This document shows, piece after piece, positions 11,537 to 30,168 of a DNA stretch of 57,070 nt (positions are counted from its first letter, which is position 1; each line of letters begins with the position of its first letter). The stretch is taken from positions 1-57,070 of the IMG/VR virus record IMGVR_UViG_3300042453_002843, one strand, 5' to 3'. A program made the translations under genes and the position numbers. This stretch comes from a virus. Under the pieces are notes generated by a model. That model did no database searches and was not told the DNA's origin. It saw only the letters and a program-made list of their open reading frames with translations.

Positions 11537-11539
11537 ATA
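11532..11539 (+). promoter_or_regulatory. T4-type late promoter TATAAATA
   Basis: The octamer TATAAATA is the exact T4 late promoter box. It overlaps the helicase stop codon and lies 24 bp before the ATG at 11563. T4-type late promoters have only this -10 element, read by polymerase carrying gp55 and the clamp. Confidence 0.8.
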
Positions 11540-11562: not shown

Positions 11563-12345
11563 ATGCCCGGATCGTTAAAAGTTCACGGACTGTTATTTAA
11601 ACATAGTACACTAGATAAATCTTATGTTTTAAATTCTCCTTCTCCTACAGAAAGAGGTGAACTAGCAGTTTTAGAACAAATTAATGGGTATATTATGAAA
11701 ATAGGATCTCCAATTACTGTGAAAGCTGGGCGACATACATTTAAAAATATTTACGGTGCAAATAAAGTAGAAGGCACTCCTAAGGCTGATATTGCTCTAG
11801 TTACATTTAATGCTAAGACCAAGAAGTTCGAAGATGTATGTTTCATATCTCATAAAATGGGATCCGATGCTGGAGGCTTTCAACAATATAGCGGTATTAC
11901 TCCGAAAGCTGACGGCCAAAAGACAGGTTCTATCTCAAAAGACAAGAATGTGGTTGATTTTTTGAGAAAATTGAGTGGCTATCACAATACTATTGTCGGA
12001 GCTAAAAAAAGATTCTATGCAGTAGTTAAGGATAGAAAATTAATAGGTAAGTCTATATACGGTCCTCAGTTCGGTGAAACTAGATTTGGAATAGATAACA
12101 TTCATCTAATAGGTCAAGGTGATGTTAGAATGTCTGTTGTTGGAAATGCACACAAATTAGATTTTACCGCACACGCAAGCTACAACCCAGATGTTTCAGA
12201 ATTCATGAAGAACGGATACACAACTATTATAGGTGCTCGTTATTCTTCAGGAAGAAATTATGAAGTAGATGGAGTAACCTATAAAAGTGTTAGGGTTTTA
12301 ATTATGCCGAAAAAATTAATTGGTTCTAAGGCTGAAGAAATATGA
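11563..12345 (+). CDS. Late protein with PD-(D/E)XK nuclease-like signature
   Basis: The 260-residue product has GTPKADIALVTF (about residues 67-78) followed, after a turn, by CFISHKMG. This layout, an Asp in one strand and a strand ending in x-x-K, fits a divergent PD-(D/E)XK nuclease core in which the acidic residue of the second motif is replaced. The following QYSG and the C-terminal YKSVRVLIMPKKL give no further clue. A consensus late promoter directly upstream implies expression with virion genes. It overlaps the next gene (ATGA). The nuclease reading is inference and a structural role is equally possible. Confidence 0.7.
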   Translation: MPGSLKVHGLLFKHSTLDKSYVLNSPSPTERGELAVLEQINGYIMKIGSPITVKAGRHTFKNIYGANKVEGTPKADIALVTFNAKTKKFEDVCFISHKMGSDAGGFQQYSGITPKADGQKTGSISKDKNVVDFLRKLSGYHNTIVGAKKRFYAVVKDRKLIGKSIYGPQFGETRFGIDNIHLIGQGDVRMSVVGNAHKLDFTAHASYNPDVSEFMKNGYTTIIGARYSSGRNYEVDGVTYKSVRVLIMPKKLIGSKAEEI

Positions 12346-13580
12346 ACTTCAAAGATTTTATAGTTGAGTCTTCGAAGGAAGGAAAGAATGTTCATCTAGA
12401 ACATATCGAAGATGAAGTAATCAATCGCGGTGTTCCTGGTGCAAGGGATGCGATTAATTTTTTACGCTCTTTGAGAGACATGCTTGCAGGTAATGCAGAT
12501 TCGAAAGTAAATATCACAACAAAATGGGATGGTGCGCCAGCAGTCTTCGCGGGTATTAATCCAGAAAATGGAAAATTCTTCGTTGCAACTAAAGGCATTT
12601 TCAATGTTGATGCAAAACTAAATTATACTGATGAAGACATCGACAGAAATCATCCAGGTGAAGGCTTGAATAAAAAACTCAAGACAGCACTCACCTATCT
12701 TCCTAAATTGGGTATCGATGGTATTCTTCAAGGTGATATGATGTTTGGTGAAGATGATTTAGGAGAAGCAGAAAAAGAAATAGATGGGCAAATGTATTTG
12801 ACATTTAAACCTAATACGATTGTCTATGCTGTACCAGTCGAAAGCAAATTGGCTAAATCGATGAAAGCAGCTAAGATGGGTATTGTATTTCATACTTCAT
12901 ATACAGGTAAAACTATAGCATCATTGAAGGCATCATTTAATATCGACATAAACAATTTAAAGAAAACAAAAGATGTTTGGTTCAGGGATGCATATTTTAT
13001 TGATGCCTCAGGTACAGTAACTTTTACCAAAGAAGAAACTAAACAAATTACATCTATTCTATCTCAAGCAGGTACCGTATTTTCTAGAATCAATTCATTA
13101 TCAATGAATCGTATTGCTGCATCAGACATTATACAAACTCAAATTAAAACATTTAACAACACCAAAGTTCGTTCAGGGCAAAAAATTACTAACCCAGTAT
13201 CACACGCTGTTGAGTTGACTAAATGGGTTGAAGATAAACTGAATAAAGAAATTTTATCTGCTAAAAAGAAAGACACAAAAGAAAAGAGAATGGCAGAAAA
13301 AAACGAATTGGTGAGATTCTATAGAGGAAACAACTCCGATTTGGTTGCAATATTCACATTACAAAATCTATTAGTTGATGCTAAAAATATGATTATTAAA
13401 AAACTTCAACAAATAAAACAAGTGACAAATACTTTTGTTCAAACCGATGATGGATATAAAATTACTAATCCAGAAGGTTTCGTTGCGGTAGATAAACTAA
13501 AAGGAAATGCAGTTAAGTTAGTTGATAGACTAGAATTCAGCCATCTAAACTTCACTGCACAGAAAAACTGGAGTAAGTAA
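12342..13580 (+). CDS. Ligase/nucleotidyltransferase-like protein with capsid-targeting-like N-terminus
   Basis: The first residues, MNFKDFIVES, resemble the T4 internal-protein capsid-targeting peptide (MKTYQEFIAEA), including an I-x-E site for the head protease. The body (412 residues) has TKWDGAPAVFAG near 60-71, matching the K-x-D-G motif I of covalent nucleotidyltransferases. FFVATKG and GILQGDMMF follow at spacings like motifs III and IV, and YLTFKPNTIVYAV lies where motif V would be. It may be a divergent DNA/RNA ligase or capping-type enzyme packaged in the head. The assignment is by motif reading only. Confidence 0.72.
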   Translation: MNFKDFIVESSKEGKNVHLEHIEDEVINRGVPGARDAINFLRSLRDMLAGNADSKVNITTKWDGAPAVFAGINPENGKFFVATKGIFNVDAKLNYTDEDIDRNHPGEGLNKKLKTALTYLPKLGIDGILQGDMMFGEDDLGEAEKEIDGQMYLTFKPNTIVYAVPVESKLAKSMKAAKMGIVFHTSYTGKTIASLKASFNIDINNLKKTKDVWFRDAYFIDASGTVTFTKEETKQITSILSQAGTVFSRINSLSMNRIAASDIIQTQIKTFNNTKVRSGQKITNPVSHAVELTKWVEDKLNKEILSAKKKDTKEKRMAEKNELVRFYRGNNSDLVAIFTLQNLLVDAKNMIIKKLQQIKQVTNTFVQTDDGYKITNPEGFVAVDKLKGNAVKLVDRLEFSHLNFTAQKNWSK

Positions 13581-13891
13581 TGTATAACTTTAAGCAATTT
13601 GAAGTGTTACATGAAGCAGCATATGCTGGTAATATAGGTATTATGGAACTAATTAAATTTAAAAAACATGCTAATGAAAATCAAAAGAAATCTTTCGATG
13701 ATCATGTTAAAAATAAAAGACATAAAGAAGCATGGGATCTAGTTCAGAAAGTTACTGGAGTTAAACTACATAAAAGTGTCAGTGAAGAAAAGAAGTCACC
13801 AAATCCTGATATCTTACCTGTAGCAGGAGCAGGGCAATGGGGCACAAAACACCTGGTAAAGAAGTATAAAAAGGACACACCAGGCCAATAA
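13580..13891 (+). CDS. Small late protein, possible capsid-targeted
   Basis: The 103-residue product begins MYNFKQFEVLHEAA, which again looks like the F-x-x-F-x-x-x-x-E pattern of a capsid-targeting peptide. The rest is basic and helical (FDDHVKNKRHKEAWDLVQKV), with a C-terminal lysine-rich tail. The start codon overlaps the stop of the ligase-like gene. I do not recognise a family. It closes the late operon that begins at 11532. Confidence 0.65.
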   Translation: MYNFKQFEVLHEAAYAGNIGIMELIKFKKHANENQKKSFDDHVKNKRHKEAWDLVQKVTGVKLHKSVSEEKKSPNPDILPVAGAGQWGTKHLVKKYKKDTPGQ

Positions 13892-13921
13892 ACGTACTAT
13901 ATAAAATGAAGGAGCTATATT

Positions 13922-14758
13922 ATGAAAGATTTGATTATAGGATGTGCGAATAATTACACATGGGAAACCCTAAAGTATTGGGTTAACTCTATCAATAAAT
14001 GCGGTTTTGAAGGTGAGAAAGTTCTCATTCTAATGAACTGCGATAACGAATCCGCAAGAAAAGTAATTGAAGCGGGATTTAAAGTCATTGGATTCGGTCA
14101 AGACGAACAAGGAAATCTTAAATATGAGCCTGGAAGAATTCCTGTTCATGTAGAAAGATTTATTCACATTTACGATCATCTCTGTAGGAACGATTATCGT
14201 TATGTTATTACAACCGATGTCAAAGATGTTGTATTCCAACAAAATCCCATCGATTGGCTAGAAAACAATTTAGGTGATAAAGGTTTAGTCTTTGCTTCTG
14301 AAAGCATGAAGTATAAAGACGAGCCTTGGGGCAATCAGAATCTTTTAGAGACTTATGGTCCCTACATTCATGAAAAATATAAAAACAACACTATCTACAA
14401 CGTCGGCGTTCTAGCTGGTCGTGCCACACAAATGCGCGATTTGATTATCAATATCTTTACCGCAGCAATCAATCGCCCAATTCCTATTTGCGACCAATCT
14501 ACATTTAATTTTATGATTTCTATGACACCATATACGCACACTTGCAAATATATGAATTCTGAAGATGGTTGGGCAGCACAATTAGGTACAACAGCAGACC
14601 CATCTAAAATAGAACAGTTTAGACCTTTTCTTTTAGAAGCAGAACCTAAGATGGTCGAAGGTAAAGTTACTACTTCGACTGGAAAAGAGTTTACAATCGT
14701 TCATCAGTATGATAGAGTACCAGAATGGCGAAAAGTTATTGAGGCGAAATATGGTTGA
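13922..14758 (+). CDS. Glycosyltransferase-like protein (GT-A type)
   Basis: The 278-residue protein has an N-terminal beta-alpha pattern (KVLILMNCDN) and a D-x-x-D variant, YVITTDVKDVVFQ, near residues 98-110, where GT-A enzymes bind the metal-sugar-nucleotide. NVGVLAGRA and CDQSTFNF resemble the acceptor-side motifs of family 8-like transferases. It is the first gene of the sugar cassette, behind AAGGAG. A TATATAAA sequence lies just upstream but without a clear -35. Donor and acceptor are unknown. Confidence 0.75.
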   Translation: MKDLIIGCANNYTWETLKYWVNSINKCGFEGEKVLILMNCDNESARKVIEAGFKVIGFGQDEQGNLKYEPGRIPVHVERFIHIYDHLCRNDYRYVITTDVKDVVFQQNPIDWLENNLGDKGLVFASESMKYKDEPWGNQNLLETYGPYIHEKYKNNTIYNVGVLAGRATQMRDLIINIFTAAINRPIPICDQSTFNFMISMTPYTHTCKYMNSEDGWAAQLGTTADPSKIEQFRPFLLEAEPKMVEGKVTTSTGKEFTIVHQYDRVPEWRKVIEAKYG

Positions 14759-15437
14759 TGGTGTGTTTTTTGTTAGTTCTGCTTTAAATGTTAAGCAGTT
14801 ATCTGTTTTTAATAATCATCAAAGATTTGAACAGACGGTAGAAACCGTAAAATCAATACAAAAGTATTGCCCAAACAACAAGATTATTATGTTCGATGCT
14901 TCTTATGATATGCCTTTATCAGAATATGTTGGACAACTAGGTCTTATGGGTGTACATTTTTTGTATGTGGGATCAAATCCTCAAATCAAACACTTTTCGA
15001 GTGTTGGTTTGAGGAGTCTCGCTGAAACATTGAGTTTTATCATTGCACTCGATTGGTATTCAAAAAATAAAATTGAAACTAAACGATACTATAAGATGTC
15101 TGGAAGATACAAGTTAAATGATAATTTTGTATTAAATCAAGATGATTTTAAAGACTCATTTGTGTTTCTTCCCACGGTAAATTCTTGGATGACAAAAGAC
15201 AAACAAGAGAGAGCGGGTGTCGATACAATTTTCGAATTGAGACTTTGGCACATGGATGCTTCTTTGTTTGATACATTTCAATCTAAGCTGCCTATTATTT
15301 TTAATGATTGTTTGGAATATGATATTGATGTTGAGCATTCTTATTACAAACATTTAAATAAATTTAAATGGGTACAAATTCAACCTATTGGATTAGAAGG
15401 TGTTATAGCACCTACAGGAGCAATTATTAATGAGTAA
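14751..15437 (+). CDS. Putative glycosyltransferase or sugar-cassette protein
   Basis: The 228-residue product starts at ATG 14751, overlapping the previous stop by eight bases, with GAGG upstream. NNKIIMFDAS and RYYKMSGRYKLND recall small bacterial glycan-locus transferases, but no DxD is clear. RLWHMDASLFD and YDIDVEHSYYKHL complete the domain. The role is inferred mostly from position between a GT-A-like protein and a sugar dehydratase. Confidence 0.65.
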   Translation: MVDGVFFVSSALNVKQLSVFNNHQRFEQTVETVKSIQKYCPNNKIIMFDASYDMPLSEYVGQLGLMGVHFLYVGSNPQIKHFSSVGLRSLAETLSFIIALDWYSKNKIETKRYYKMSGRYKLNDNFVLNQDDFKDSFVFLPTVNSWMTKDKQERAGVDTIFELRLWHMDASLFDTFQSKLPIIFNDCLEYDIDVEHSYYKHLNKFKWVQIQPIGLEGVIAPTGAIINE

Positions 15438-16464
15438 ACATGTTTTGATTACTGGTGGTGCAGGCTTCATTGCACACCATGTTATTGATCTTTTGATTCG
15501 AGTCACAGATTGGAAAATTACAACGATTGACCGGCTAGATTATTCTGGCAATTTAAATCGTCTACATGAAGTTTTGGAGAGTTATGATAGAGAAGTTCAG
15601 AAGAGAGTTAATGTAGTCTTTCATGATTTGAAAGCAGAGATTAATCCTATCACGCAAAACTTTCTCCATAAACACGGAAATATTGATGTGATTCTTCATT
15701 TGGCTGCATCTTCGCATGTAGATAGGTCGATCACTCATCCGATGGAATTTATTTTCGATAACACTATCGGTACTGCTCATCTTCTTGAGTTTGCAAGAAA
15801 ACTTCCATATCAGTTAGAAACTTTCCTGTATTTCAGTACCGACGAAATCTTTGGTGTTGCACCTCCTGGTGTTGCATACAAAGAGCGTGATAGGTATAAT
15901 TCTACGAATCCATACTCTGCATCAAAAGCTGCTGCTGAAGAATTGTGTGTTGCATATGAAAACACATATAAACTTCCAATGATGATTACACATACAATGA
16001 ATGTATTTGGTGAGAGACAAACACCAGAGAAATTTATTCCTTTGTGTATTGATCGGGTGCGTAAAGGTGAAAAAATCTTTATTCATTCAGATCATACTAA
16101 AACTCAAGCAGGAAGTCGATTCTATATCCATGCCGCAGATGTTGCAGATGCACTTTTATTCTTGGTCAAAAACAAGCCAGTTCCACAAATGGATTATGGT
16201 AATGCAAGATGCCCTAAGTTTAATATTGTTGGTAAAGAAGAAGTTGATAATCTAACACTCGCTAAACTTGTTGCTCAAGCACAAGGGAAAGATTTGATTT
16301 ATGAAATGGTAGATTTTCATTCGAGTAGACCGGGGCACGATTTGCGTTATGCACTTGATGGTGGGTTGATGAGAAGTCTCGGATGGGAACCTAAAGTTGC
16401 CTTCTCTCAAAGAATTAAACAGGTGAGTGATTGGTATTTGGAGAATGACAGATGGTTAATGTAG
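15430..16464 (+). CDS. NAD-dependent nucleotide-sugar 4,6-dehydratase (RmlB-like)
   Basis: This is a 344-residue short-chain dehydrogenase of the extended type. The NAD-binding motif GGAGFIA is at residues 9-15, the catalytic STDEIFG near 137 has the Asp-Glu pair typical of 4,6-dehydratases, and the catalytic YSASK is near 160. Length and motif set match dTDP-glucose 4,6-dehydratase (RmlB). It would produce a 4-keto-6-deoxy nucleotide sugar, which suits the C-methyltransferase encoded next. The nucleotide specificity cannot be read from sequence. Start and stop overlap both neighbours. Confidence 0.92.
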   Translation: MSKHVLITGGAGFIAHHVIDLLIRVTDWKITTIDRLDYSGNLNRLHEVLESYDREVQKRVNVVFHDLKAEINPITQNFLHKHGNIDVILHLAASSHVDRSITHPMEFIFDNTIGTAHLLEFARKLPYQLETFLYFSTDEIFGVAPPGVAYKERDRYNSTNPYSASKAAAEELCVAYENTYKLPMMITHTMNVFGERQTPEKFIPLCIDRVRKGEKIFIHSDHTKTQAGSRFYIHAADVADALLFLVKNKPVPQMDYGNARCPKFNIVGKEEVDNLTLAKLVAQAQGKDLIYEMVDFHSSRPGHDLRYALDGGLMRSLGWEPKVAFSQRIKQVSDWYLENDRWLM

Positions 16465-17657
16465 AAGCAATTAATAATTGTATTGCATGTGGGCACGACA
16501 CTTTAATTCCTGTTTTGGATTTAAAAGAACAGCCTCTTGCAAACTCTTATAAGAAAAGTCGAGATGAAGTTCAGGAAACTTATCCTCTAGCAATTGTTCG
16601 GTGTGATAATTGTTACCATGTTCAATTGACGCATCGAGTTAATCCTGATTTGATGTTTAAGGATTATTTGTATGTTTCCGGTACAGCCAAATCTCAATTG
16701 GAATATTTTGATTGGTTTTCACAATTCGCTTCTGAAAAATTTGGAACCAAACCTCGCACAGTTTTAGATATTGGTTGTAATGATGGAAGTCAGTTAAACT
16801 ATTTTCAGGATCAGGGAGCACAAACTTATGGTGTGGATCCTGCTGAAAATCTTTATGCAACATCTTCTCAGAGGCATGAGGTTGTTTGTGGTTACTTCAC
16901 GGGTAAAGAGTTTAGCCAAAGTTTTGATGTGATTGTTTGTCAAAATGCATTCGCACATAATTATGATCAATTAGAGTTGTTGCAAAATATTCGTAACGTA
17001 ATGCATAAAGATAGTTTACTTTTTGCAACCACATCTCAATCTGATATGATTTTAAATGGTGAGTTCGATACGATTTACCATGAGCATTTGTCTTTCTATA
17101 ATATTAAATCTATTGATGCTCTTTGTAAACGTGCAGATTTACATTTAGTTGATGTTGTAAAATCTCCTGTGCATGGAACAAGTTACATTTTCATCATCTC
17201 TAAGTTTTCAAAAGCACCAAAAACTATCGAGAATCTAATTGCATTGGAAACTAAATCTGGTCTTTATTTTCCAGAAACATATGTTCAATATTATGAACGA
17301 TGTAACGATATATTGAAGAAATTTAAGAATATTGTTCAGGAAATGAAAGAACAAGGAATTACTACTGTTGGCTTAGGTGCTCCAGCAAAAGGAAACACTC
17401 TACTAAATGCAGCAGAAACTTCTCTGGACTTTATCATCGATGAAAATCCTTTGAAACAAGGATTGTTTACACCCGGAAGTTCTGTGCCCATCTATGGTAT
17501 GAATCATCTTGACAATTTCAAATATTTTGATACAATATGCTTTATTCCTCTTGCATGGAACTTTTATGGTGAAATGAAAAGAAAAGTTCAAACATATAGA
17601 GTTGGAAAGAAAGACGTTTTTGTTAAATATTTTCCTAAATTTAGTATTGAAAAATGA
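16452..17657 (+). CDS. Sugar C-methyltransferase (zinc-binding, SAM-dependent)
   Basis: This 401-residue protein has the domain order of deoxysugar C-methyltransferases. An N-terminal zinc knuckle (CIACG and CDNC) is followed by a class I SAM domain with LDIGCNDGS near residue 104. The catalytic-loop signature YHEHLSFYN comes next, and a C-terminal domain contains GLGAPAKGNTLLNA. Characterised relatives methylate C3 of 4-keto-6-deoxy sugars. With the RmlB-like dehydratase directly upstream, a branched deoxysugar is a sensible product (inference). Confidence 0.88.
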   Translation: MVNVEAINNCIACGHDTLIPVLDLKEQPLANSYKKSRDEVQETYPLAIVRCDNCYHVQLTHRVNPDLMFKDYLYVSGTAKSQLEYFDWFSQFASEKFGTKPRTVLDIGCNDGSQLNYFQDQGAQTYGVDPAENLYATSSQRHEVVCGYFTGKEFSQSFDVIVCQNAFAHNYDQLELLQNIRNVMHKDSLLFATTSQSDMILNGEFDTIYHEHLSFYNIKSIDALCKRADLHLVDVVKSPVHGTSYIFIISKFSKAPKTIENLIALETKSGLYFPETYVQYYERCNDILKKFKNIVQEMKEQGITTVGLGAPAKGNTLLNAAETSLDFIIDENPLKQGLFTPGSSVPIYGMNHLDNFKYFDTICFIPLAWNFYGEMKRKVQTYRVGKKDVFVKYFPKFSIEK

Positions 17658-18346
17658 GAATAGGTTTTGGTTTTTATGGAATCTCCCATGGTCTAGACAA
17701 AAAAACTGGCTACTACAGAGACTTTCGTGATTGTTGGGAAAACATAAAAGAAAATGTGATTCAACCTTTCGTTGATTTGAAAAACGAAGCTGTGATTTAT
17801 GCCTCCACCTATAGGATGGAAGATAAAAAGGCCGAAGAAGACTTTTGGTCTTATGTAAATCCTAGAAAAGTTATTTTTAGCCAACTTGAAGGTTCGGATG
17901 CATTTACTGCTAAATCTGCTCTGCATAATGCTTTTGATGGAGAGGATTTAGACTTGGTGGTTTTCACCAGGTTTGATATTCTCTTTCATCAAAAGATTAC
18001 TACTTTTCCAATTGATTTCACCAAAGTTAATATATTTTTTCCGGAAGACCCGATGTGGTGGCAATCGCATAGATTTGTTTGTGATTGTTTCTATATTTGG
18101 AATCATGAATTTAGTGATCAAGTTAAATGGGCTATGAGAGAAACATATGGATGGCCTAGAGGCACAATGTATCCGGATACACACGGTATATTAAATTTTT
18201 TAGTTCCAAGAATCGGTCCAGAAAATATTAGTTTCATGAGTAATCAAAATCATATTAGTAATGTGAATGATTTTTATACTTTATGTAGACCTAATGTTCC
18301 AGAACACCCAAAGAAACACCCTTTCGTGAAGGCAAAATATGGCTAA
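17654..18346 (+). CDS. Glycosyltransferase-like hypothetical protein
   Basis: This 230-residue protein contains DLVVFTRFDILF near residues 98-109, a hydrophobic strand ending in an acidic pair as at the metal site of GT-A folds. MWWQSHRFVCDCFYIWN follows, a pattern seen in surface-polysaccharide transferases. It overlaps the methyltransferase stop (ATGA) and the next gene. No definite family assignment is possible. Confidence 0.65.
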   Translation: MRIGFGFYGISHGLDKKTGYYRDFRDCWENIKENVIQPFVDLKNEAVIYASTYRMEDKKAEEDFWSYVNPRKVIFSQLEGSDAFTAKSALHNAFDGEDLDLVVFTRFDILFHQKITTFPIDFTKVNIFFPEDPMWWQSHRFVCDCFYIWNHEFSDQVKWAMRETYGWPRGTMYPDTHGILNFLVPRIGPENISFMSNQNHISNVNDFYTLCRPNVPEHPKKHPFVKAKYG

Positions 18347-19085
18347 TAATTTGATAGTGTGCCCCGCTGGAATGTACATTCCAAAAGATTCAAGATGGAA
18401 ACATGAAGATCACTGGCGTTGGGTACACAATGAAAGAGACTATGAAACTCTCGTTATTGTTTATAACGATTTTGAACCTGAGCCAGGATCATATGATCAT
18501 ATTGTTCGCATTAAAGGGCATAAGTGGCAGTTGATGCAGAAGGTCAAAGATATTATTGATATTGAACGTTTTCGTTATATTGGTTGTGTCGATGATGATT
18601 TGATTACTGGATATCAAGACTTCAATACCGGATTAAAATATGCACAAGCATACAACTTCGGATATTGGCAACTATCGATGCCTCACGATTCTAGTTTAAT
18701 TTATGAGCCTCTATTCAATGACCCAGCGTGTGATTTTTCTGAGACAAATTTTATTGAGATGGGATCGTGCTTCTTTAGATTAGATTTGTTCAAGTTTTTG
18801 ATGGAGTTTATTGGTCATTGGAATCTAGAAATAGCATGGGGTATCGATAAGACATTTTATGATTTGTTTCAACAGCCCGCATATGTCATTCACTCTGCAA
18901 TGATTCATCAACCATTTAGAGACAGTTATTATGATAAGACTGCTGCAATGAATGAAATGAACGATTATTTGTTTAGAAGATATCCAGAAATTCTCGACAA
19001 ACATTATGGCAGAAAATCTAATTTTGTCGATAGACAAGTGACTTTTAGAAAGTTTAAATTAAATGATAAAGCTGATAATTCTTGA
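18339..19085 (+). CDS. Glycosyltransferase-like protein with VDDD motif
   Basis: This 248-residue protein has YIGCVDDDLITG near residue 90, a strong D-x-D-type metal and nucleotide-sugar binding motif. EMGSCFFRLDLFKF and AYVIHSAMIHQ follow in the order seen in a family of uncharacterised eukaryotic and bacterial transferases. It is likely a GT-A glycosyltransferase. It overlaps the neighbouring genes on both sides, including 23 bp with the HAD phosphatase. Confidence 0.72.
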   Translation: MANNLIVCPAGMYIPKDSRWKHEDHWRWVHNERDYETLVIVYNDFEPEPGSYDHIVRIKGHKWQLMQKVKDIIDIERFRYIGCVDDDLITGYQDFNTGLKYAQAYNFGYWQLSMPHDSSLIYEPLFNDPACDFSETNFIEMGSCFFRLDLFKFLMEFIGHWNLEIAWGIDKTFYDLFQQPAYVIHSAMIHQPFRDSYYDKTAAMNEMNDYLFRRYPEILDKHYGRKSNFVDRQVTFRKFKLNDKADNS

Positions 19086-21423: not shown

Positions 21424-21866
21424 TTCTAATATCTCATCGCGGGAATCTTGAAGGTCCTGATTCTACGAAAGAAAATGAACCTTCTTATATCGATAAGGCT
21501 TTAAGAAATTATTTTGTCGAAGTAGATTTTCGTGTTTATGAGAATGGATTTTATTTGGGACATGATACTCCAGAATATAGTGTTTCTAAAAGTTGGTTGG
21601 AAGAGAGAAAAGATAAACTATGGGTTCACTGTAAAAATATAGATGCACTAAATTTTTGCATGGAGAATTATTTTCATTGCTTTTGGCACGATAAAGACAG
21701 TTATACATTGACATCAAAAGGTTATATTTGGGCATATCCAGGAAAAATAACAATGGGTAAATGTATAACTGTCATGCCAGAAAAAGTGTGGGATAAAGAG
21801 AAATATCTTTTAGAAAAATATTATGGAGTTTGCTCCGACTTTGTGAAAATGATAAATAAGAAATAA
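21420..21866 (+). CDS. Short glycerophosphodiester phosphodiesterase-like protein
   Basis: The 148-residue protein starts ILISHRGNLEG and has EVDFRVYENGFYLGHD, which match the H-R-G and E-x-D active-site motifs of the GDPD/PI-PLC barrel. It is much shorter than complete GDPDs (about 240), so the barrel is reduced or the fold has drifted. Similar short proteins occur in bacterial surface-polysaccharide loci. It is the last gene of the sugar cassette. A late promoter lies over its 3' end. Confidence 0.72.
   Translation: MILISHRGNLEGPDSTKENEPSYIDKALRNYFVEVDFRVYENGFYLGHDTPEYSVSKSWLEERKDKLWVHCKNIDALNFCMENYFHCFWHDKDSYTLTSKGYIWAYPGKITMGKCITVMPEKVWDKEKYLLEKYYGVCSDFVKMINKK
21851..21858 (+). promoter_or_regulatory. 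Candidate late promoter GATAAATA
   Basis: GATAAATA fits the NATAAATA late-promoter pattern of T4-like cyanophages. It lies 32 bp before the ATG at 21891, the first gene of a long block of virion-type proteins. Confidence 0.6.
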
Positions 21867-21890
21867 AACTACTTGCTGTAGAGGCAGGAA

Positions 21891-24599
21891 ATGAAATTTA
21901 AAGATTTTTTAGCTGAAAAAGCACAGAAAAAGTGCGTTTTTGCATTCGGAAGAATGAATCCTCCAACCACAGGTCATGCAAAACTTGTGGAAAAAGTCAA
22001 AGCAATCGCAAAAGAGAACGATGCCGATCATCTAATCGTTCTATCACACTCTCACGACTCAAAAAAGAACCCTCTTAGTGCAAAAGAAAAGCTAAAGTAC
22101 GTTAAAGCTTTCTTTCCTGGTGTCAATTTTTCCGTATCTTCTTCTGAACAACCAAACTTTTTAGCACAAGCAGCATCTTTGTATAAAAAAGGTGTGACTG
22201 AACTTCATATGGTCGGTGGATCAGATAGAACCTCAGAATATGAACGTTTATTGAATCGTTACAATAACGTAAAAGGTCCTCATGGTCTTTTCAATTTCAC
22301 GAAAATTCAAGTACATTCTGCTGGCGAAAGAGATCCTGATGCTGAAGGAGTTGAGGGTATGTCAGCATCTAAAATGAGAGAAGCAGCAAGCAAAAGTGAT
22401 TTTGCTAAATTCAAACAAGGTGTTCCATCTAATGTTTCAGATAAAATTGCAAGGGAAATGATGATGGATGTTAGAAAAGGTATGGGTATTAAAGAAAACT
22501 TTGAAAATATGATTCAAGTCATTTTGTCTGAAGGTGTTCATGACAAAGGTATTTTCAAAGCAATGTTTCTAGCTGGTGGTCCAGGTTCGGGTAAAGATTA
22601 TGTTCTTGATAACACACTAGCTGGGCATGGGCTAACCGAGATTAACTCCGATAAAGCACTTGAATTCTTGATGGACAAAAAGAATCTTGATAAGAAAATG
22701 CCAGAATCGGAAAAAGAATTAAGAAACGTTGTTCGTGGTCGTGCCAAAGATATTACTGAATTACGCCAAAAATTAGCTCTTCTTGGTAGAAACGGGCTTA
22801 TTATCAATGGAACAGGTGATGATCCTAAGAAAATAGCTAGAATTAAGAAAGAACTTGAAGAATTAGGATATGAAACAGGTATGGTCATGGTCAATACTGC
22901 TGATGAAGTATCGAAGCAGAGAAATATTGAACGTGGTCAGAGAGGTGGTAGAACTGTTCCAGAAGAAATTCGTAAAGAAAAATGGGATGCTGTTCAATCT
23001 GCAAGACCTGAGTTAGCAAAGATATTTGGTGACAAATATCGTGAGTTTGATAATTCAGAAGATTTGCGTACAGCATCACCTGAAATTGTAAAAGCAAAAA
23101 AAGAAGAAATGCTTGACATTTTTAAAGGCGTTCAAGAATTTGTCAAAAAACCTGCTGAACATCCAAAAGCAAAAGAATGGATTGCTGGTGAATTGAGTAA
23201 GAAAGACACTTTAGGTGTTCCCAGAAAAGGCACAGAGATGGTTGCTCCTCACGGAGATACTGCTGCTGATGAGGCTAGAAAACTAGGTCTCCAATATTAC
23301 GGCTATGGGCGCTACGGTAAGAACGGAAAAGTTACTCATCATTCTGTCCACGGTAAATTGGTACAAGATCCAACCCATGTTCAACAACAGAAAATGGAAA
23401 AGAAGGCAGCAAGTATACCTGTAAGTGCTTCTTCACAACCATTGAAGATGAAAGAGTCTTTGGATAATGAATTCGAACAATTATTTGAAGCTATAACTGT
23501 TAGTGTTACTGCTGATACGCCAGAAGAATTGAAACAAGCTTTTGGTATGCTTACAGGTAACGGTGAGAAAGAAGTAGAAGAAGAAACAAATGAATTTTCA
23601 GATACGAGAGCATTTGATGCATTAACTCTAGGCAAAAAAGTTCCAGTTTTCGAAGATTTGAGAAATTGGTTCAATCCAAAACATCCTGAAGGTGGTTGGA
23701 AAAGAATCAATAGCAAAGGTGAAGCGATTGGTCCTTGCGCTAGAGAACCTGGCGAAGCTAAACCAAAGTGTATGTCAAATGAAAAAAGAGCAAAACTAAG
23801 TAAAAAAGAACGTGCTTCTGCTGTTTCTGCAAAACGTAGGCATGATCCTAATCCAGAAAGAAAAGGAGAACCTATTAATGTCTCCAATTATGGAAAAGGA
23901 AAAATCAGCGAAGAGTATACAGGAATTAAAAAAATAAAATACAACGGTTCTGTATATGTCGCTTTAAATGGTCGCCCAAGAATCTATATACTCAGGAATG
24001 CTGCTGCGAAAGATGCACATCGAAACAACGGTGAAGTGGTCAAAGCAGAAAAAGGTTACATGGTTAAATTAAAGGAGAGCTTAAATGTTCAATTTTCTGA
24101 AGAATTTGTTTCGCCCAAAGAATACGACGGAACCACATCCATTGGATGGAGCAATAAGAGCGGCACAGGACAAAATATTGATTCTACCCACACCATCGAC
24201 CAAAGTCGAAGAGAAGAAGGAAGAATTACCATCACCGAGCATTGCGGTTGCCCCGAAAGTCACGGAACCAGTGAAGAAGGAAGAACCGAAGAAAGTAGTG
24301 AAGACAGAGGCACCGAAACAGGTAAAAAGACCAAAATCACCCTCACAAAGATCAAAGAAAACTTCAAACAGAAAATCAACGAAATCGACAAAGGCATAGA
24401 GCCTGGGCTTTCGATGGCTGGTGCTGGAGAAAGTCTAGGTCGCGATATGGGTGAGAAGATTAATAAAAAAGGTAAAGTAACACCTATCAAAGAATTAACT
24501 GGTGATGAAACAGGTGCAAGCATAGGTGATCAAAAAGCAGATGAGTTACAAAAGAAAGGTATCAGTCTTTCAACATTTAAAAAGAGAAATTACCTATGA
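21891..24599 (+). CDS. Capsid-targeted fusion: nucleotidyltransferase, P-loop kinase, small modules
   Basis: The 902-residue product starts MKFKDFLAEKA, a capsid-targeting-like peptide. Residues 15-190 are a HIGH-superfamily nucleotidyltransferase (FGRMNPPTTGHAKL, and MSASKMREAA as the ISSTxxR motif). Residues 222-415 are a P-loop kinase resembling zeta toxin or polynucleotide kinases (Walker A GGPGSGKD at 229-236). Residues 590-665 are a conserved-looking basic module (GGWKRINSKG, GPCAREPGE, KPKCMS). The order nucleotidyltransferase then kinase recalls NadR, so an NAD-related role is possible. From residue 732 the frame overlaps a second, better-looking ORF (24085-24399), so the C-terminal region may be a fusion or shadow. 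Confidence 0.78.
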   Translation: MKFKDFLAEKAQKKCVFAFGRMNPPTTGHAKLVEKVKAIAKENDADHLIVLSHSHDSKKNPLSAKEKLKYVKAFFPGVNFSVSSSEQPNFLAQAASLYKKGVTELHMVGGSDRTSEYERLLNRYNNVKGPHGLFNFTKIQVHSAGERDPDAEGVEGMSASKMREAASKSDFAKFKQGVPSNVSDKIAREMMMDVRKGMGIKENFENMIQVILSEGVHDKGIFKAMFLAGGPGSGKDYVLDNTLAGHGLTEINSDKALEFLMDKKNLDKKMPESEKELRNVVRGRAKDITELRQKLALLGRNGLIINGTGDDPKKIARIKKELEELGYETGMVMVNTADEVSKQRNIERGQRGGRTVPEEIRKEKWDAVQSARPELAKIFGDKYREFDNSEDLRTASPEIVKAKKEEMLDIFKGVQEFVKKPAEHPKAKEWIAGELSKKDTLGVPRKGTEMVAPHGDTAADEARKLGLQYYGYGRYGKNGKVTHHSVHGKLVQDPTHVQQQKMEKKAASIPVSASSQPLKMKESLDNEFEQLFEAITVSVTADTPEELKQAFGMLTGNGEKEVEEETNEFSDTRAFDALTLGKKVPVFEDLRNWFNPKHPEGGWKRINSKGEAIGPCAREPGEAKPKCMSNEKRAKLSKKERASAVSAKRRHDPNPERKGEPINVSNYGKGKISEEYTGIKKIKYNGSVYVALNGRPRIYILRNAAAKDAHRNNGEVVKAEKGYMVKLKESLNVQFSEEFVSPKEYDGTTSIGWSNKSGTGQNIDSTHTIDQSRREEGRITITEHCGCPESHGTSEEGRTEESSEDRGTETGKKTKITLTKIKENFKQKINEIDKGIEPGLSMAGAGESLGRDMGEKINKKGKVTPIKELTGDETGASIGDQKADELQKKGISLSTFKKRNYL
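24085..24399 (+). CDS. Nested ORF in +1 frame with strong ribosome-binding site
   Basis: A 104-residue ORF lies wholly inside the 3' part of the 21891 gene in another frame. Its ATG is preceded by AAAGGAG at ideal spacing. The product starts MFNFLKNLFRPKN and continues into a lysine-, proline- and glutamate-rich tail (PSTKVEEKKEEL, VKKEEPKKVVKTEAPKQVK), a composition typical of disordered virion or DNA-binding proteins. The overlapping frame in the same interval is rich in Thr, Gly and Glu without obvious structure. I think this small gene is real and that the long frame crosses it. Confidence 0.6.
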   Translation: MFNFLKNLFRPKNTTEPHPLDGAIRAAQDKILILPTPSTKVEEKKEELPSPSIAVAPKVTEPVKKEEPKKVVKTEAPKQVKRPKSPSQRSKKTSNRKSTKSTKA

Positions 24600-24961
24600 A
24601 ACGCTATAAAGATTTTATCGCAGAGAGATGCTGGCCTGGGCATAAACCAGTACCGGGTAAAAAGCCATACTCTCCAGGTTCTTGTGTGAAAGAAGAAGTC
24701 AACGAAGATTGGCAAAAAGTAAACAAGGCTGATAGAACTGATGGTCTTTCACAAAAGGCTGTAAATGCATATCGTCGTGAGAATCCAGGTTCTAAGTTAA
24801 AAACTGCTGTCACTGAAAAGAATCCTACTGGTAAACGTGCAGCCCGCCGTAAATCTTTTTGCTCCAGAATGGGTGGAATGAAAAAACGCTTGACAAATCC
24901 AGAAAATGCAAGAGATCCAGATAGCCCAATCAACAAGGCACTACGCCGTTGGAATTGCTGA
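24596..24961 (+). CDS. Basic late protein with capsid-targeting-like N-terminus
   Basis: The 121-residue product begins MKRYKDFIAERCW, closely matching the T4 internal-protein peptide including FIAE. The body is very basic and cysteine-containing: GLSQKAVNAYRRENPGSKL, TAVTEKNPTGKRAARRKSFCSRMGG and INKALRRWNC. This module recurs in many phage head-associated proteins, as far as I recall, and could bind DNA. The start overlaps the stop of the 21891 gene by ATGA. Length and charge resemble T4 internal proteins IPI-III. Confidence 0.8.
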   Translation: MKRYKDFIAERCWPGHKPVPGKKPYSPGSCVKEEVNEDWQKVNKADRTDGLSQKAVNAYRRENPGSKLKTAVTEKNPTGKRAARRKSFCSRMGGMKKRLTNPENARDPDSPINKALRRWNC

Positions 24962-24964
24962 TAA

Positions 24965-26281: not shown

Positions 26282-26301
26282 AAACTTAAAAAGGGGCAAC
26301 C

Positions 26302-27708
26302 ATGTATAACGATAAGATTCTAAAATCAGTAGCAGAGGCAGTAAAACAAGTCATGGAAGCAGAACTTTCATCAAAACAGAAAGCTATTGCTAAGATGAGT
26401 GAACCAAAACACAAGATTGATGCTGGCGATCTTTCTAAACTTCGTGCAGGTCATAAGCCAGTTAAGGAAGCAGTTGTCAAAGGTAAAGGCTATGACAATC
26501 CAGAAAATGAACGTAAGGCTCCTGAAGGTAAAGTTCCAATGACAAGTTTGATGCCTGGTCATGATGAACGTGCTGCTAAATTCCTAGCTCGTCAAGCTAA
26601 AGGTACTTTAGTTAAAGGTAAAGCAGGGAGCGCACCACAAAAAGAACCTGGAATGAAGAAAGAAGAAGTTGAGCAGGTTGATGAAGCACAAAGTCATCAA
26701 GCTAAAACTACAATGAAGCACATCAAGAATCCTACTAAAGGTGAGATGGAAGCCTCTAAGCACATGAAGTCAGGGACCGGTGGTTATCGTGATCGTATCG
26801 CAATGCTTAAATCGGCTGAAGCTCGCGGTGGTTTGAAAAAAGAAGAAGTTGAAATTGCCGAGAGTGATGATTTAGGTCCAGTAAAGAAAAAACAAAAAAC
26901 AGTTATGCTTGTTCATAAGACATCTGGAAGAGAAAAAGTTATCGTTGATACTCCAGAAAATAGAAAAAGACATGCAGAGATGGGTTTTCATCCAATCAAA
27001 GAAGAAGCTTCACAAGATGAGTTCAATGCTGAAATCAAGAAAGCACAAGATAAATCTCAGGGTAAAGCAAAAGCTGAAGTTGCAAAGCCCGCAGTTCAGG
27101 CTGTAAAACAAGAATCGGTTGAACAAACATTTACTATTGAAGATATCGAAAACTTCATGCAAACTGAAGAGTATCAACAATTAGATGAATTATCTAAAAA
27201 CCTTTTAAGTCGTTATAAAAAGGCTGCTGCAAAGGATCAGTATGATGCCTTTGACAAAGATAATAAGTTAGGTATAGAACATCAAAAAGTAAAACGTTTA
27301 ATGGCAAATACTAATAAGGGTGCTCCAGGAATGAGAGGTGCTAATCCTATTTCCAAAACAAACGCACCTGCCGTACACAAGGCTCTCTCAAAAGCTTCCG
27401 ATGAAATCCAGAAAATGAGAGATCCTCATCAAGCTAGATTTGCCAAAAGAAGGTCAGGTATGGAATTAGCTACTAAAAAAATGGGTATTGGTGCTGGTTC
27501 CAGAGGTGTCGTAAGAGGCACCGGTAAATTAAATAAAGAAGAAGTCGAACAAATTGATGAGCGCACATTATCTTCAGGTGAAATGGAAAAGCGCGAGAAA
27601 TATGTCAAGTCTATGAAAAAGGGGCTTGAAGGATTCAAACAGCGTTATGGTGAAAGAGCAAAAGAAGTTATGTACGCTACTGCTACCAAAATGGCTAAGA
27701 AGGACTAA
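26302..27708 (+). CDS. Modular head-associated protein with EEVEQ-x-DE linkers
   Basis: This 468-residue, highly charged protein is built of short basic modules joined by near-identical acidic linkers: EEVEQVDE (121-128), EEVEIAE (181-187) and EEVEQIDE (413-420). Each linker offers a hydrophobic-x-E site as used by the T4 gp21-type head protease. Recognisable modules include LSSKQKAIAKMSEPKHKID (22-40), LDELSKNLLSRYKKAAAKD (294-312) and the C-terminal FKQRYGERAKEVMYATATKMAK. The layout suggests a polyprotein that is cut into peptides inside the prohead (inference). It starts behind AAAAAGGGG. Confidence 0.75.
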   Translation: MYNDKILKSVAEAVKQVMEAELSSKQKAIAKMSEPKHKIDAGDLSKLRAGHKPVKEAVVKGKGYDNPENERKAPEGKVPMTSLMPGHDERAAKFLARQAKGTLVKGKAGSAPQKEPGMKKEEVEQVDEAQSHQAKTTMKHIKNPTKGEMEASKHMKSGTGGYRDRIAMLKSAEARGGLKKEEVEIAESDDLGPVKKKQKTVMLVHKTSGREKVIVDTPENRKRHAEMGFHPIKEEASQDEFNAEIKKAQDKSQGKAKAEVAKPAVQAVKQESVEQTFTIEDIENFMQTEEYQQLDELSKNLLSRYKKAAAKDQYDAFDKDNKLGIEHQKVKRLMANTNKGAPGMRGANPISKTNAPAVHKALSKASDEIQKMRDPHQARFAKRRSGMELATKKMGIGAGSRGVVRGTGKLNKEEVEQIDERTLSSGEMEKREKYVKSMKKGLEGFKQRYGERAKEVMYATATKMAKKD

Positions 27709-28676
27709 GTATGAAAAAATTTTCGAAAGTTGCAGATTCGGTGAGAGGCATCACCGAATCCAAGGATGAAGATAGAGGCGAGTACGACTACGAAGGTGAT
27801 ATGGCTATGTCCGATCTTCGTAGTATCATGCATAATGCTCAACGTCTTCATGATATGCTAGAGCCAAACACTAATTTGCCTGAATGGTGCCAGTCTAAGA
27901 TTACTTTAGCTGAAGATTATATTTCTACAGTTGCAAACTATATGACTGCTGAAATGAACGAAGAATACATTAAAGAGTCGGGTGGTGAAGTTGTATTCAA
28001 AAAAGGTGAAAATCATATTGAAAAATATGGTGAAGATGCATTTGCGTTATATAAAAATGGCAAAAAACAAAAATATTACACTTCTATTGAAGCAGCAAAA
28101 TCTGCGATGAATGAAGAAGTTGAATATCTCGAAGAAAAAAATGCACCAACAAATCCTGCATTGTGGTCCCGCGCAAAAGCACTAGCTAAATCTAAATTTG
28201 ATGTGTATCCTTCTGCTTACGCAAATGGTTGGGCTGCTAAGTGGTACAAATCAAAAGGTGGTGGCTGGAAGTCTGTAAGTGAAGAAGTTGAACAACTCGA
28301 TGAGATGCCTGGTGCAAATATGGATACTCGCGCAGTTCATTCCCATTTGAAGAAAAAAGGATGGAAGTTGTCGAGATCATCAGGCAGCCATGATGTATAC
28401 ACACATTCTGAAGCTGAACATCATATTTCCGTTCCTCGTCACAAACAATTAAAAGCTCCTTTAGTGAAAGGCATTTTGAAGCAAGCTGAGATTAAAGAGA
28501 GTGAAATTATTGTGACACCCAGAAAGAATATTAAAGCACCGGCTGCACCAGGAACTTATGCTCATGATCTTGCAAGCGGCAAATATGCAAAATATGGTTT
28601 CACTAAATCTGGCAAAGAAACTGCTGCTGCAAAGCGTGAAAGAATGAAAAAAGAAGAAGTTGAACAACTTGATGAA
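26662..28676 (+). repeat. Dispersed coding repeat: KKEEVEQ-x-DE linker
   Basis: The linker recurs at six sites across two adjacent genes: residues 121-128, 181-187 and 413-420 of the 26302 protein and 135-142, 191-198 and 315-322 of the 27711 protein. The coding DNA also repeats (aagaagaagttgaacaa followed by gatga). All copies separate small domains, so they behave as interdomain linkers and may guide module shuffling by recombination. Confidence 0.8.
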
Positions 28677-29159
28677 ATCAGTCAAGAAACAAAAAAATCT
28701 TATGTTCAAAAGGCTAAAGCAGAAGTTAAAGAATTAAAGCCTCATGTAAAAGGTGAATATGGAAGTTTTGCTAAAAATATTATTGCTCGTAGACAAAAAG
28801 GTATCAAAATGGCTACCGAACAAGCTACAGCATCCGGTGCACATGAGGGTCGTTTCATATCTGGTCAGCCAAAAGTTCCTTTTAAGAATCCCACAATAGT
28901 TTCTTCAGAAAATAAAAAAGATCCTATGCAGAGGGTTAAAGAACTAGCTAAAGCCGCAGCGAAAAGACAAGCTGGAATCAAAGAAAATATGGAGCCAGAA
29001 GACGCTGAAGATAAAGTGAACACTGCTGCTAAAAGAAGCCTTTCAAAGACGGCAGGTATGGTAAAAGATTTAGCTAAAAAAGGTAAAGATAATAAAAAAG
29101 AAAAGCCAGAAACTTTTCAATCTGAACCTGAACTCTCTTCACAAATCGTAAAAGTATAA
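27711..29159 (+). CDS. Modular head-associated protein containing a HicA-like domain
   Basis: The 482-residue protein is a second linker-repeat protein. Modules in order: a helical YEGDMAMSDLRSIM to ISTVANYMTAEM segment (27-82); KNAPTNPALWSRAKALAKSK to NGWAAKWYKSKGGGW (143-186); a HicA-like domain (about 205-262) with LKKKGWKLSRSSGSH, then ISVPRHKQLKAPLVKGILKQAEI; a linker (315-322); and a lysine-rich tail. HicA toxins are small dsRBD-fold mRNA nucleases with a catalytic His in G-S-H, which is present at 225-227. Flanking LDE and KESE sites could free the domain if cut by the head protease. Confidence 0.78.
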   Translation: MKKFSKVADSVRGITESKDEDRGEYDYEGDMAMSDLRSIMHNAQRLHDMLEPNTNLPEWCQSKITLAEDYISTVANYMTAEMNEEYIKESGGEVVFKKGENHIEKYGEDAFALYKNGKKQKYYTSIEAAKSAMNEEVEYLEEKNAPTNPALWSRAKALAKSKFDVYPSAYANGWAAKWYKSKGGGWKSVSEEVEQLDEMPGANMDTRAVHSHLKKKGWKLSRSSGSHDVYTHSEAEHHISVPRHKQLKAPLVKGILKQAEIKESEIIVTPRKNIKAPAAPGTYAHDLASGKYAKYGFTKSGKETAAAKRERMKKEEVEQLDEISQETKKSYVQKAKAEVKELKPHVKGEYGSFAKNIIARRQKGIKMATEQATASGAHEGRFISGQPKVPFKNPTIVSSENKKDPMQRVKELAKAAAKRQAGIKENMEPEDAEDKVNTAAKRSLSKTAGMVKDLAKKGKDNKKEKPETFQSEPELSSQIVKV

Positions 29160-29162
29160 ACT

Positions 29163-29170
29163 CATAAATA
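29163..29170 (+). promoter_or_regulatory. Late promoter CATAAATA
   Basis: CATAAATA fits the NATAAATA late-promoter pattern and lies 21 bp before the ATG at 29192, in the only non-coding gap of this block. Confidence 0.68.
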
Positions 29171-29191
29171 TAAAAAATAAGGAGATTTTAA

Positions 29192-29782
29192 ATGTCACTT
29201 TGGGCAAAATCAGATTCAGCTAATGCTGCACCAAAATTTACCGGTATTTCTACTGGTATTGCAGCAAGCGCCAATGGTGAGACAGTATTTGGTAATACAC
29301 AAATCGGCGCGTTTCAAACAGGATACAAAGGTACTGTCGGTATCTTCGGTGTTGACGTTACTGAACAGTCCGTCGCACAAACAAGCAATGTCAAACCGCA
29401 ACATGCTGGTTGGGTTGCTGTAATGAAAGGAACAGGTCCTATTGCATCACTCACTGCAAATGCGAATTCTTATTCACCAGATTCGATTACTGGTACAGTT
29501 TATTTGACATTTACTGGTGGTGGTACAGGAACAACAGCAGCCAATGCACAAATCGTTGCAAATGCTACAACAGGGTTAATCACCGGTATTCAAATCAATA
29601 GTGGTGGTAACTACGAACGTTCTCCAGTTGTAGGTACAGTTGCTAACTCTAACGTTGCTATCACGATAACAATGGGTGGTCGTGCAGGTAGAACGCAAGT
29701 CGAAACTCTTGTTGCTATGGGTACTATCGGAACTCAAGGTATTGTTGATGCTTCCGATGATACGATTTTTAAAGATATCTGA
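29192..29782 (+). CDS. Virion structural protein, glycine/threonine-rich
   Basis: The 196-residue product starts MSLWAKSDSANAAPKFTG and is rich in Gly, Thr, Ala and Asn, with a central repeat-like GTVYLTFTGGGTG and QIVANATTGLITGIQINSGGNYE. It contains QHAGWVAVMKGTG, which I recall from abundant structural proteins of T4-like cyanophages. The ribosome-binding site AAGGAG and an immediate late promoter point to strong late expression, so a decoration or tail protein is likely. The exact place in the virion is not known. Confidence 0.75.
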   Translation: MSLWAKSDSANAAPKFTGISTGIAASANGETVFGNTQIGAFQTGYKGTVGIFGVDVTEQSVAQTSNVKPQHAGWVAVMKGTGPIASLTANANSYSPDSITGTVYLTFTGGGTGTTAANAQIVANATTGLITGIQINSGGNYERSPVVGTVANSNVAITITMGGRAGRTQVETLVAMGTIGTQGIVDASDDTIFKDI

Positions 29783-30168
29783 TGGATTTTAAAAACTTTA
29801 TTAAAGAAGATTATGAGCAATCTACCGGTGATGTGCCGGTAGATTCATCTTCATTAGACTCTTCGGTTGTTGAAAAGTTGAATCTGATGTTGAATGTTGT
29901 ATTGGAAGATCCAGTTTACACACCAGAAACTGGAATTACTTTGGTCAGAAAAATACTCATGGTTGAAAATTTAGATTTTCATCCACTATATGATTTAAGC
30001 TCTGAAGGGGAAGAAATAGTCGAAGCTATCGATGGTACAGATAAGTATATTTACATTCTGTATTATCCAACCGATAATGGTTATTACGATTTTTATGCTG
30101 AAGTGACCGATGAAGAAGGTGCAGAGGAAATGCTGAATTCAGGAGTCGAAGGCGAATCTGAGAAATAA
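29782..30168 (+). CDS. Small acidic protein with capsid-targeting-like N-terminus
   Basis: The 128-residue protein begins MDFKNFIKEDYE, another F-x-x-F-I-x-E N-terminus. The remainder is strongly acidic (SLDSSVVEKLN, SSEGEEIVEAIDGTD) with a tyrosine-rich strand segment (YIYILYYPTDNGYYDFYAEV). It follows the structural gene at 29192 with an overlapping start (stop and ATG share bases). I do not recognise the fold. A packaged or assembly-related role is inferred from the N-terminus. Confidence 0.68.
   Translation: MDFKNFIKEDYEQSTGDVPVDSSSLDSSVVEKLNLMLNVVLEDPVYTPETGITLVRKILMVENLDFHPLYDLSSEGEEIVEAIDGTDKYIYILYYPTDNGYYDFYAEVTDEEGAEEMLNSGVEGESEK

Follow-up and report, generated by a model that had tools for sequence, protein, structure and literature searches.

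Why should five late genes of one phage begin alike, and why should the motif they share recur inside one of their products? The locus that raises this question lies in the IMG/VR virus record IMGVR_UViG_3300042453_002843, of which positions 1 to 57,070 were analysed (hereafter the window, 57,070 nucleotides). Its open reading frames (ORFs) starting at 12342, 13580, 21891, 24596 and 29782, by which the genes are named here, carry N-terminal peptides resembling capsid-targeting tags, which are already known in T-even phages. It is highly probable that these tags direct their proteins into the phage head. We also favour, with less assurance, a wider reading in which T4-like freshwater and marine phages chain enzyme modules behind one such tag, making a head-loaded, protease-activated polyprotein cargo from which the prohead protease would free the enzymes for injection.

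The shared N-terminal peptide

All five ORFs have the starts and the peptides that an earlier note on this DNA had given them. Its statement that all follow one pattern stands for four. The strict pattern for N-termini was set as [FY]xxF[IL]xE, and an arrow within a peptide marks the expected cut after E. A strict fit to aromatic-x-x-F-(I/L)-x-E is given by MNFKDFIVE↓S (12342), MKFKDFLAE↓K (21891), MKRYKDFIAE↓R (24596) and MDFKNFIKE↓D (29782), whereas 13580 has a variant, MYNFKQFEVLHE↓A, in which two extra residues separate F from L-x-E. The five N-termini are real and not a product of chance. Among the 90 window ORFs judged likely genes, four match the strict expression at the N-terminus, against 0.08 expected from the rate within the same proteins, and when the first 20 residues were shuffled (mean 0.047 matches, maximum 2) none of 20,000 rounds reached four.

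A megablast search of positions 12000-36000 against the phage collection gave no match. Conservation was assessed in a set of 132 related loci (L007-L138, several from one contig), with blastp used to match their ORFs to window genes. Each distinct N-terminus or context was counted once, although those counted remain related to one another. The strict motif occurs in six of the 47 gene families of these loci: those of 12342, 24596 and 29782 (Table 1), and those of 21891 (33 of 45 unique N-termini), 13580 (2 of 30) and 27711 (1 of 19, a CW-type start). Among the 432 unique N-termini of the remaining 41 families, which include replication, glycan-type and structural genes, none has the strict motif. 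Allowing Y for the second F (as in MKFSEYITE) rescues non-strict N-termini in the families of 12342 (Table 1), 21891 (4 of 12), 24596 (1 of 6) and 29782 (3 of 8). In relatives of 13580 the letters before the site are diverse, while (I/L/V/M)-x-E↓A-x-Y-x-G-N-I-G is kept almost throughout (Table 1). The strict motif thus recurs in relatives of all five genes, and some homologues lack the tag.

These counts carry some choices of method. Peptide seeds of the locus search included MNFKDFIV, MKRYKDFI, MYNFKQFE and IKENFENM, which may favour relatives with such letters; the loci behind the family counts came from searches seeded with the N-terminus of 12342, not with those of 21891, 24596, 13580 or 29782. 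The start codon yielding the motif was preferred, equally in every family, and five of the 45 unique N-termini under 21891 are CW-start proteins with shared modules. The family counts leave out any ORF that runs off the low end of a contig; in the contexts counted below for the 13580, AVTVTITGDT, HicA-like and CW modules, such ORFs were left out if fewer than ten residues from that end. Y at position -4 was disallowed in the window and family counts and allowed in the Y-for-F counts and in the S-CREM2 scan reported below.

The promoters suggest that all five genes are late, as the earlier note had proposed. The late-promoter core ATAAATA, found in NATAAATA of S-PM2 and TATAAATA of T4 (PMC2984593), has seven copies in the window, on the coding strand only. 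Overall this is below chance (7 against 22.4), yet five of the seven lie 10-60 nucleotides upstream of a called gene start (0.56 expected; 0 of 20,000). The three operons 11563-12342-13580, 21891-24596 and 29192-29782, which together include all five genes, each stand behind one of these five copies.

How close are these peptides to those of T4? In the T4 genome (NC_000866), IPII and IPIII do start MKTYQEFIAE↓A, as the earlier note had it, and IPI starts MKTFKEFTSTTTPVSTITE↓A; the arrow is set by the rule that gp21 cleavage follows L/I-x-E (PMC9026906). According to the same account, the first ten residues of IPIII are enough for incorporation, with positions 4 and 7 acting in targeting and 8 and 10 in processing. 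Since these positions coincide with the conserved ones, the window peptides retain the residues mapped in T4 for both activities. T4 gp23 contains the same motif, FGSFLTE↓A, which we take to be where gp23 is cut.

A protease of the gp21 family (PF03420) is encoded in all three long contigs checked that hold relatives of the cluster, and also in HTVC008M, S-CREM2, T4, Melnitz and S-SM1. Major capsid proteins beside it keep (L/M)-x-E at about residues 50-55, with predicted cuts at YLTE↓AVPTN, ILNE↓G and IMNE↓T, and FLGE↓I is the corresponding predicted cut in HTVC008M. Three podophages carry DUF6321 without a tag, and a PF03420 search of those genomes gave no match; they form a small natural control (n = 3).

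Modules and junctions of the 902-residue protein

The 902-residue product of 21891 looks like a polyprotein. The earlier note, which spoke of a nucleotidyltransferase/kinase, overlooked that the cut motif recurs between the modules of this protein. The nucleotidyltransferase matches PF01467, a PHROG cytidyltransferase and, by Foldseek, NaMN adenylyltransferases; the kinase has a P-loop kinase fold (PF06414 Zeta_toxin, 3e-10; Foldseek polynucleotide kinase 4gp6, TMt 0.69, and zeta 3q8x). Two domains with distinct predicted activities thus lie within one chain, and the linker NMIQVILSE stands ahead of the kinase (GVHDKGIFK...). In the AlphaFold model, E214 falls in a stretch below a predicted local distance difference test (pLDDT) score of 50 between two better-folded domains, and E533 inside a similar stretch (505-541); with its mean pLDDT of 59, the model is a guide that supports this layout of domains and linkers.

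Junctions were pooled over the unique contexts of five modules (the kinase, the HicA-like module of 27711 and three others), with the T4 loci L004, L141 and L355 left out (L004 and L141 in the earlier per-module counts). [ILVM]xE, the gp21 cleavage motif, stands immediately before the module in 132 of 142 contexts and at offsets 1-4 upstream in 1, 0, 0 and 4 of them; in these proteins the three-residue motif has a background of about 0.024 per residue. After clustering by similarity of the nine upstream residues, the site was common to all members of 49 of the 55 context clusters. A count of the strict expression inside whole families was dropped: helicase and a glycan-type family scored at least as high as 21891. 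That count was not clean, since a single conserved site was counted many times, and unique junction contexts were used instead.

The kinase junction was counted with an E-free pattern because an earlier expression had required E at -1. In 43 unique contexts, -1 is E in all 43, -3 is L in 38, I in 3, V in 1 and F in 1, and of the ten columns -2 varies most (entropy 3.36). The same kinase stands as its own gene in Melnitz (MKTFAELQE↓GVYD) and HTVC008M (MIPFILKE↓GLYD). Before AVTVTITGDT the junction reads FENFLSE↓A or FEEFLQE↓A, and FEQLFE↓A in the window version. The DLRxWF...GGW module follows [ILVMF]-x-E in every one of its 23 unique contexts (16 if F is disallowed at -3), both behind N-terminal tags (MKKFSSLQE↓, MKSFSTFQE↓, MKSFLSFQE↓, MKKFTIFQE↓) and behind internal linkers (FESLFSE↓, PLIKE↓). 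The 13580 module reappears in longer chains after KISE↓ in L039 and L058, and (L/I)-x-E precedes the HicA-like module in all 18 unique contexts. Four of the five modules are found both near N-termini and internally; TVTITGDT is internal only. Such an (I/L)xE boundary probably lets modules exchange between stand-alone tagged genes and polyproteins.

Several observations speak against cutting at these boundaries. Extra [ILVM]xE is found at offsets 5, 7 and 8 upstream (18, 13 and 26 of 142), which we read as secondary sites. The CW module is a weak case: of its 55 contexts, 24 have [ILVM]xE abutting the module (N-terminal contexts, 19 of 36; middle, 0 of 1; internal, 5 of 18), and 47 have [ILVMF]xE no more than three residues away. 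The E could belong to the conserved module and not to a cut site, or the site could travel with the module. No prohead protease gene was found in the 57-kb window, which is a fragment.

The most serious rival, which we nevertheless consider unlikely, holds that the tags target and are removed in the T4 manner while the internal (I/L)xE sites stay uncut: the modules would remain one multi-domain protein, and the sites would be remnants of fused tags or parts of modules. T4 requires an N-terminal peptide only, gene fusion would leave a tag remnant at every junction, and a given site always occupies the same place of its module. A remnant would be expected to decay, however, yet at the kinase junction -3 and -1 are kept around the most variable position, most upstream-context clusters keep the site in every member, and internal FxxF[IL]xE is the motif of T4 gp23. 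That the prohead protease cuts between the modules of the packed chain we hold with moderate confidence.

Tagged proteins in virions

The motif, its non-randomness and family specificity, the late promoters, the sites at module starts and the protease genes of relatives are all read from sequence; the virion mass spectrometry (MS) of tagged homologues comes from the publications of others. A cytidylyltransferase/NMNAT homologue appears in four published sets, and all four start with the tag: S-SM1, MKKFSAFLNE↓A (PMC3037559; T4-GC190, which is SSM1_190 by the record note); S-CREM2, MKNFSSFLTE↓A (PMC10665884); S-SZBM1, MRFRQFIIE↓A (PMC9146016; paper numbers paired with RefSeq genes via length and product); and S-SCSM1, MKSFLQFLKE↓A (PMC9602691, with record notes also used). 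A scan of S-CREM2 covered 217 of its 219 coding sequences, leaving out gp85 and gp130, both MS-detected and cut by region ends. It found the strict tag in three, all within the 50 MS-detected proteins (hypergeometric 0.012): gp6 SAM hydrolase, gp14 APH-like kinase and gp154 cytidylyltransferase. The authors class six proteins as non-structural, and these are three of them (PMC10665884). A fourth of the six, the Cas9-annotated gp12, is MS-detected with LRFASFMAE↓A at residues 17-25, and gp13 (MKDLHSFLTE), also MS-detected, matches a looser pattern that likewise matched six undetected genes.

The packaging in the head proposed by the earlier note is thus supported by the kept T4-mapped residues and by MS-detected, tagged nucleotidyltransferase homologues in four cyanophages; for the DUF6267, 13580, DUF6321 and 29782 proteins, the tag is its basis. 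As a separate observation, S-CREM2 gp12 (OR473000, L351 7704-10313) has 869 residues, is annotated as Cas9/Csn1 and is reported from the virion (PMC10665884, Table 3); a Pfam search with it gave no match at E 0.01.

On the other side of the balance, the MS support comes from homologues in other phages and not from the window virus, and mature N-termini are not visible in the published coverage. Of the 50 MS-detected S-CREM2 proteins, 47 have no strict tag, most of them head and tail parts. The HTVC008M nucleotidyltransferase starts MKTLKELLRKK, with no site, and in S-CBWM1, outside Kyanoviridae, NMNAT is reported in virions (PMC9602691) while the annotated NMNAT is untagged. DUF6267 of S-SM1 and S-SZBM1 is untagged too. 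No protein of DUF6267's length is among the 30 MS-detected proteins of S-SZBM1; that this untagged protein is not detected agrees with the tag rule, yet the tag is not universal in the family.

Could the detected homologues simply be abundant late proteins that co-purify, with the motif serving elsewhere, for example in binding another late protein? Co-purification is raised as possible by the S-CREM2 (PMC10665884) and S-SCSM1 (PMC9602691) authors themselves. But the few S-CREM2 genes that the motif selects are all on the virion list, the motif agrees with the processing residues of T4 tags, and S-SZBM1 fits as just described, which makes this explanation improbable. Scarcely credible is a mere compositional habit of phage N-termini in AT-rich genomes: MK-x-F-type starts look common by eye, but composition shuffles never reproduced the matches (0 of 20,000), 41 of 47 families in the same loci lack the motif, and the families tested do not show early genes matching as often.

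Tag-directed packaging would proceed as follows. Late in infection, the aromatic/Phe part of the tag would bind the prohead core, and tagged proteins would be enclosed while the shell forms. A gp21-type prohead protease would cleave after (I/L/V)-x-E, removing the tags, and may also cut the inter-module linkers of the 902-residue protein, perhaps along with those of 27711 and 26302. One packed chain would then give several proteins, namely nucleotidyltransferase, kinase and small modules, and from 27711 a HicA-like module. The freed proteins would remain associated with the DNA and pass with it into the next host, where T4 and the domains suggest that they might act in NAD or nucleotide metabolism or in RNA processing. 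Head location, cleavage after E, inter-module cutting, injection and host function are the steps we infer.

Cargo, neighbouring genes and known systems

Table 1. Features of the late operons and their predicted products (window positions).
Feature	Positions	Strand	Basis
Late promoter TATAAATA of operon 11563-12342-13580	11532..11539	+	ATAAATA scan
Propeptide MNFKDFIVE of DUF6267 protein, capsid-targeting-like	12342..12368	+	28 of 48 unique relatives strict; 18 of 20 others Y for second F
Predicted mature DUF6267 protein (PF19782)	12369..13577	+	Pfam; K61-W-D-G64, E378-G379, K392 invariant in 21 sequences
Variant propeptide MYNFKQFEVLHE	13580..13615	+	[ILVM]xE abutting AxYxGNIG, 38 of 39 unique contexts
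Small basic cargo module AAYAGNIG...	13616..13888	+	Free-standing here; in longer chain in L039, L058
Late promoter GATAAATA of operon 21891-24596	21851..21858	+	ATAAATA scan
Propeptide MKFKDFLAE of 902-residue putative polyprotein, capsid-targeting-like	21891..21917	+	M1, F3, L7, E9 invariant, 13 sequences
Nucleotidyltransferase module (NMNAT/cytidylyltransferase-like), ends at linker site ILSE↓G	21918..22532	+	PF01467; model matched by Foldseek to NaMN adenylyltransferases
P-loop kinase (zeta-toxin/polynucleotide-kinase-like) and GYGRYG module, ends FEQLFE↓A	22533..23489	+	PF06414; Foldseek 4gp6 TMt 0.69; junction contexts
AITVSVTADT module, ends VFE↓D	23490..23654	+	[ILVM]xE before start, 16 of 17 unique contexts, all internal
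DLRNWF...GGWK module	23655..23912	+	[ILVMF]xE abutting, 23 of 23 unique contexts
C-terminal part of putative polyprotein, mostly low model confidence	23913..24596	+	AlphaFold model
Propeptide MKRYKDFIAE of CW/DUF6321 protein	24596..24625	+	22 of 28 unique relatives strict
Mature CW motif and DUF6321 (PF19846), pI 10.3	24626..24958	+	Pfam, pI calculation
Candidate longer propeptide ending VME↓A, weaker	26302..26358	+	Inference; same gene has EEVEQ(V/I)DE sites
Candidate longer, IPI-like propeptide MKKFSKVADSVRGITE, weaker	27711..27758	+	Inference
HicA-like module, abuts EEVEQLDE↓, next site IKE↓S	28305..28499	+	PF07927; [ILVM]xE before it, 18 of 18 unique contexts
Late promoter CATAAATA of operon 29192-29782	29163..29170	+	ATAAATA scan
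Propeptide MDFKNFIKE	29782..29808	+	5 of 13 unique relatives strict
Predicted mature acidic protein, pI 4.1	29809..30165	+	No Pfam or PHROG family match

The earlier note had described basic cargo, and four of the five mature parts are indeed basic (isoelectric point, pI, 9.2-10.3), whereas that of 29782 is acidic. The label "ligase-like" for DUF6267 rests on motifs: its KWDG, EGxV and K are reminiscent of covalent nucleotidyltransferases or ligases. Neither sequence nor fold confirmed this, as no relative with a solved structure turned up (best E 0.17) and the fold model was of low quality (mean pLDDT 50). PHROG 455 matches both the DUF6267 protein and the nucleotidyltransferase, and a pattern search of the loci examined found no single ORF joining the two. 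The HicA domain of 27711 (PF07927, 5.5e-13) is that of a putative mRNA interferase. EEVEQ(L/I/V)DE repeats are spaced along two basic late proteins (26302-27708 and 27711-29159) and may offer a protease several cut sites. Tagged cargo of several phages shares a small LGLxxxGYGRYxxxGxVTHxSxxGKL-like module (window 22533-23489, SSM1_190 and S-CREM2 gp14), which in S-SM1 and S-CREM2 follows soon after the tag.

Among the neighbours, a small late protein (30777-31109; MKIKED↓AVPTNAVAGGAIAGIG) resembles the predicted start of a mature major capsid protein after its cut, as in L365 (YLTE↓AVPTNASGTGGFGG) and S-SCSM1 (FLAE↓APTNAVGSDGFQGG). S-SCSM1_97 ("virion protein" in the record note) and the MS-detected S-CREM2 gp160 also carry GFTG...GPxAGYDP like major capsid proteins, and capsid-arm mimicry is possible for this group. 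Between two of the tagged operons lies a ten-gene block (13922-21866), glycan-related by eye (families not searched), and HTVC008M and Melnitz have no such block at the corresponding place.

What would these tags mean for cyanophage biology? Cytidylyltransferases, kinases, a SAM hydrolase and a Cas9-annotated protein are listed in cyanophage virion proteomes, where two groups of authors leave undecided whether they are packaged or contaminants (PMC10665884; PMC9602691). A ten-residue tag that predicts head-riding proteins turns this into a directly testable question, and any T4-like genome can be searched for such a tag. Should the internal sites be cut, several enzymes would be delivered from a single packed chain in step with head maturation, and the tags could be cargo handles in other T4-like phages. 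In the open-licence PMC literature, we found no report of such tags in cyanophage-type phages, nor of prohead-protease polyproteins of enzymes.

The closest known parallels are the T4 internal proteins IPI, IPII and IPIII, with which the window proteins share a tag of about ten residues, with the aromatic, Phe, Ile/Leu and Glu at matching places, as well as late genes; relatives in the phage group encode a gp21-family protease. In contrast to theirs, this cargo counts proteins of 45 and 99 kDa among its members, along with a module chain with internal sites, and Pfam detects nucleotidyltransferase, kinase, DUF6267 and DUF6321 domains in it. Several short Glu-ending sites per chain and a prohead protease are also described for the T4 core proteins gp22, gp67 and gp68 and for head proteins of phiKZ and SPN3US (PMC9026906); theirs are scaffold or propeptide fragments, while here the modules are predicted enzymes. 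Polyvalent proteins (Iyer et al. 2017, PMC5512222) are likewise late phage proteins with several domains, for which packaging and injection are proposed. A Pfam scan of ten window proteins at E 0.01 found neither a peptidase domain nor any of their hallmark domains (MPTase, DarA-N, LPD, PBECR), and the window proteins are not classed among them. Polyvalent proteins are proposed to be split by their own peptidase domain (PMC5512222), whereas the sites described here match the prohead protease.

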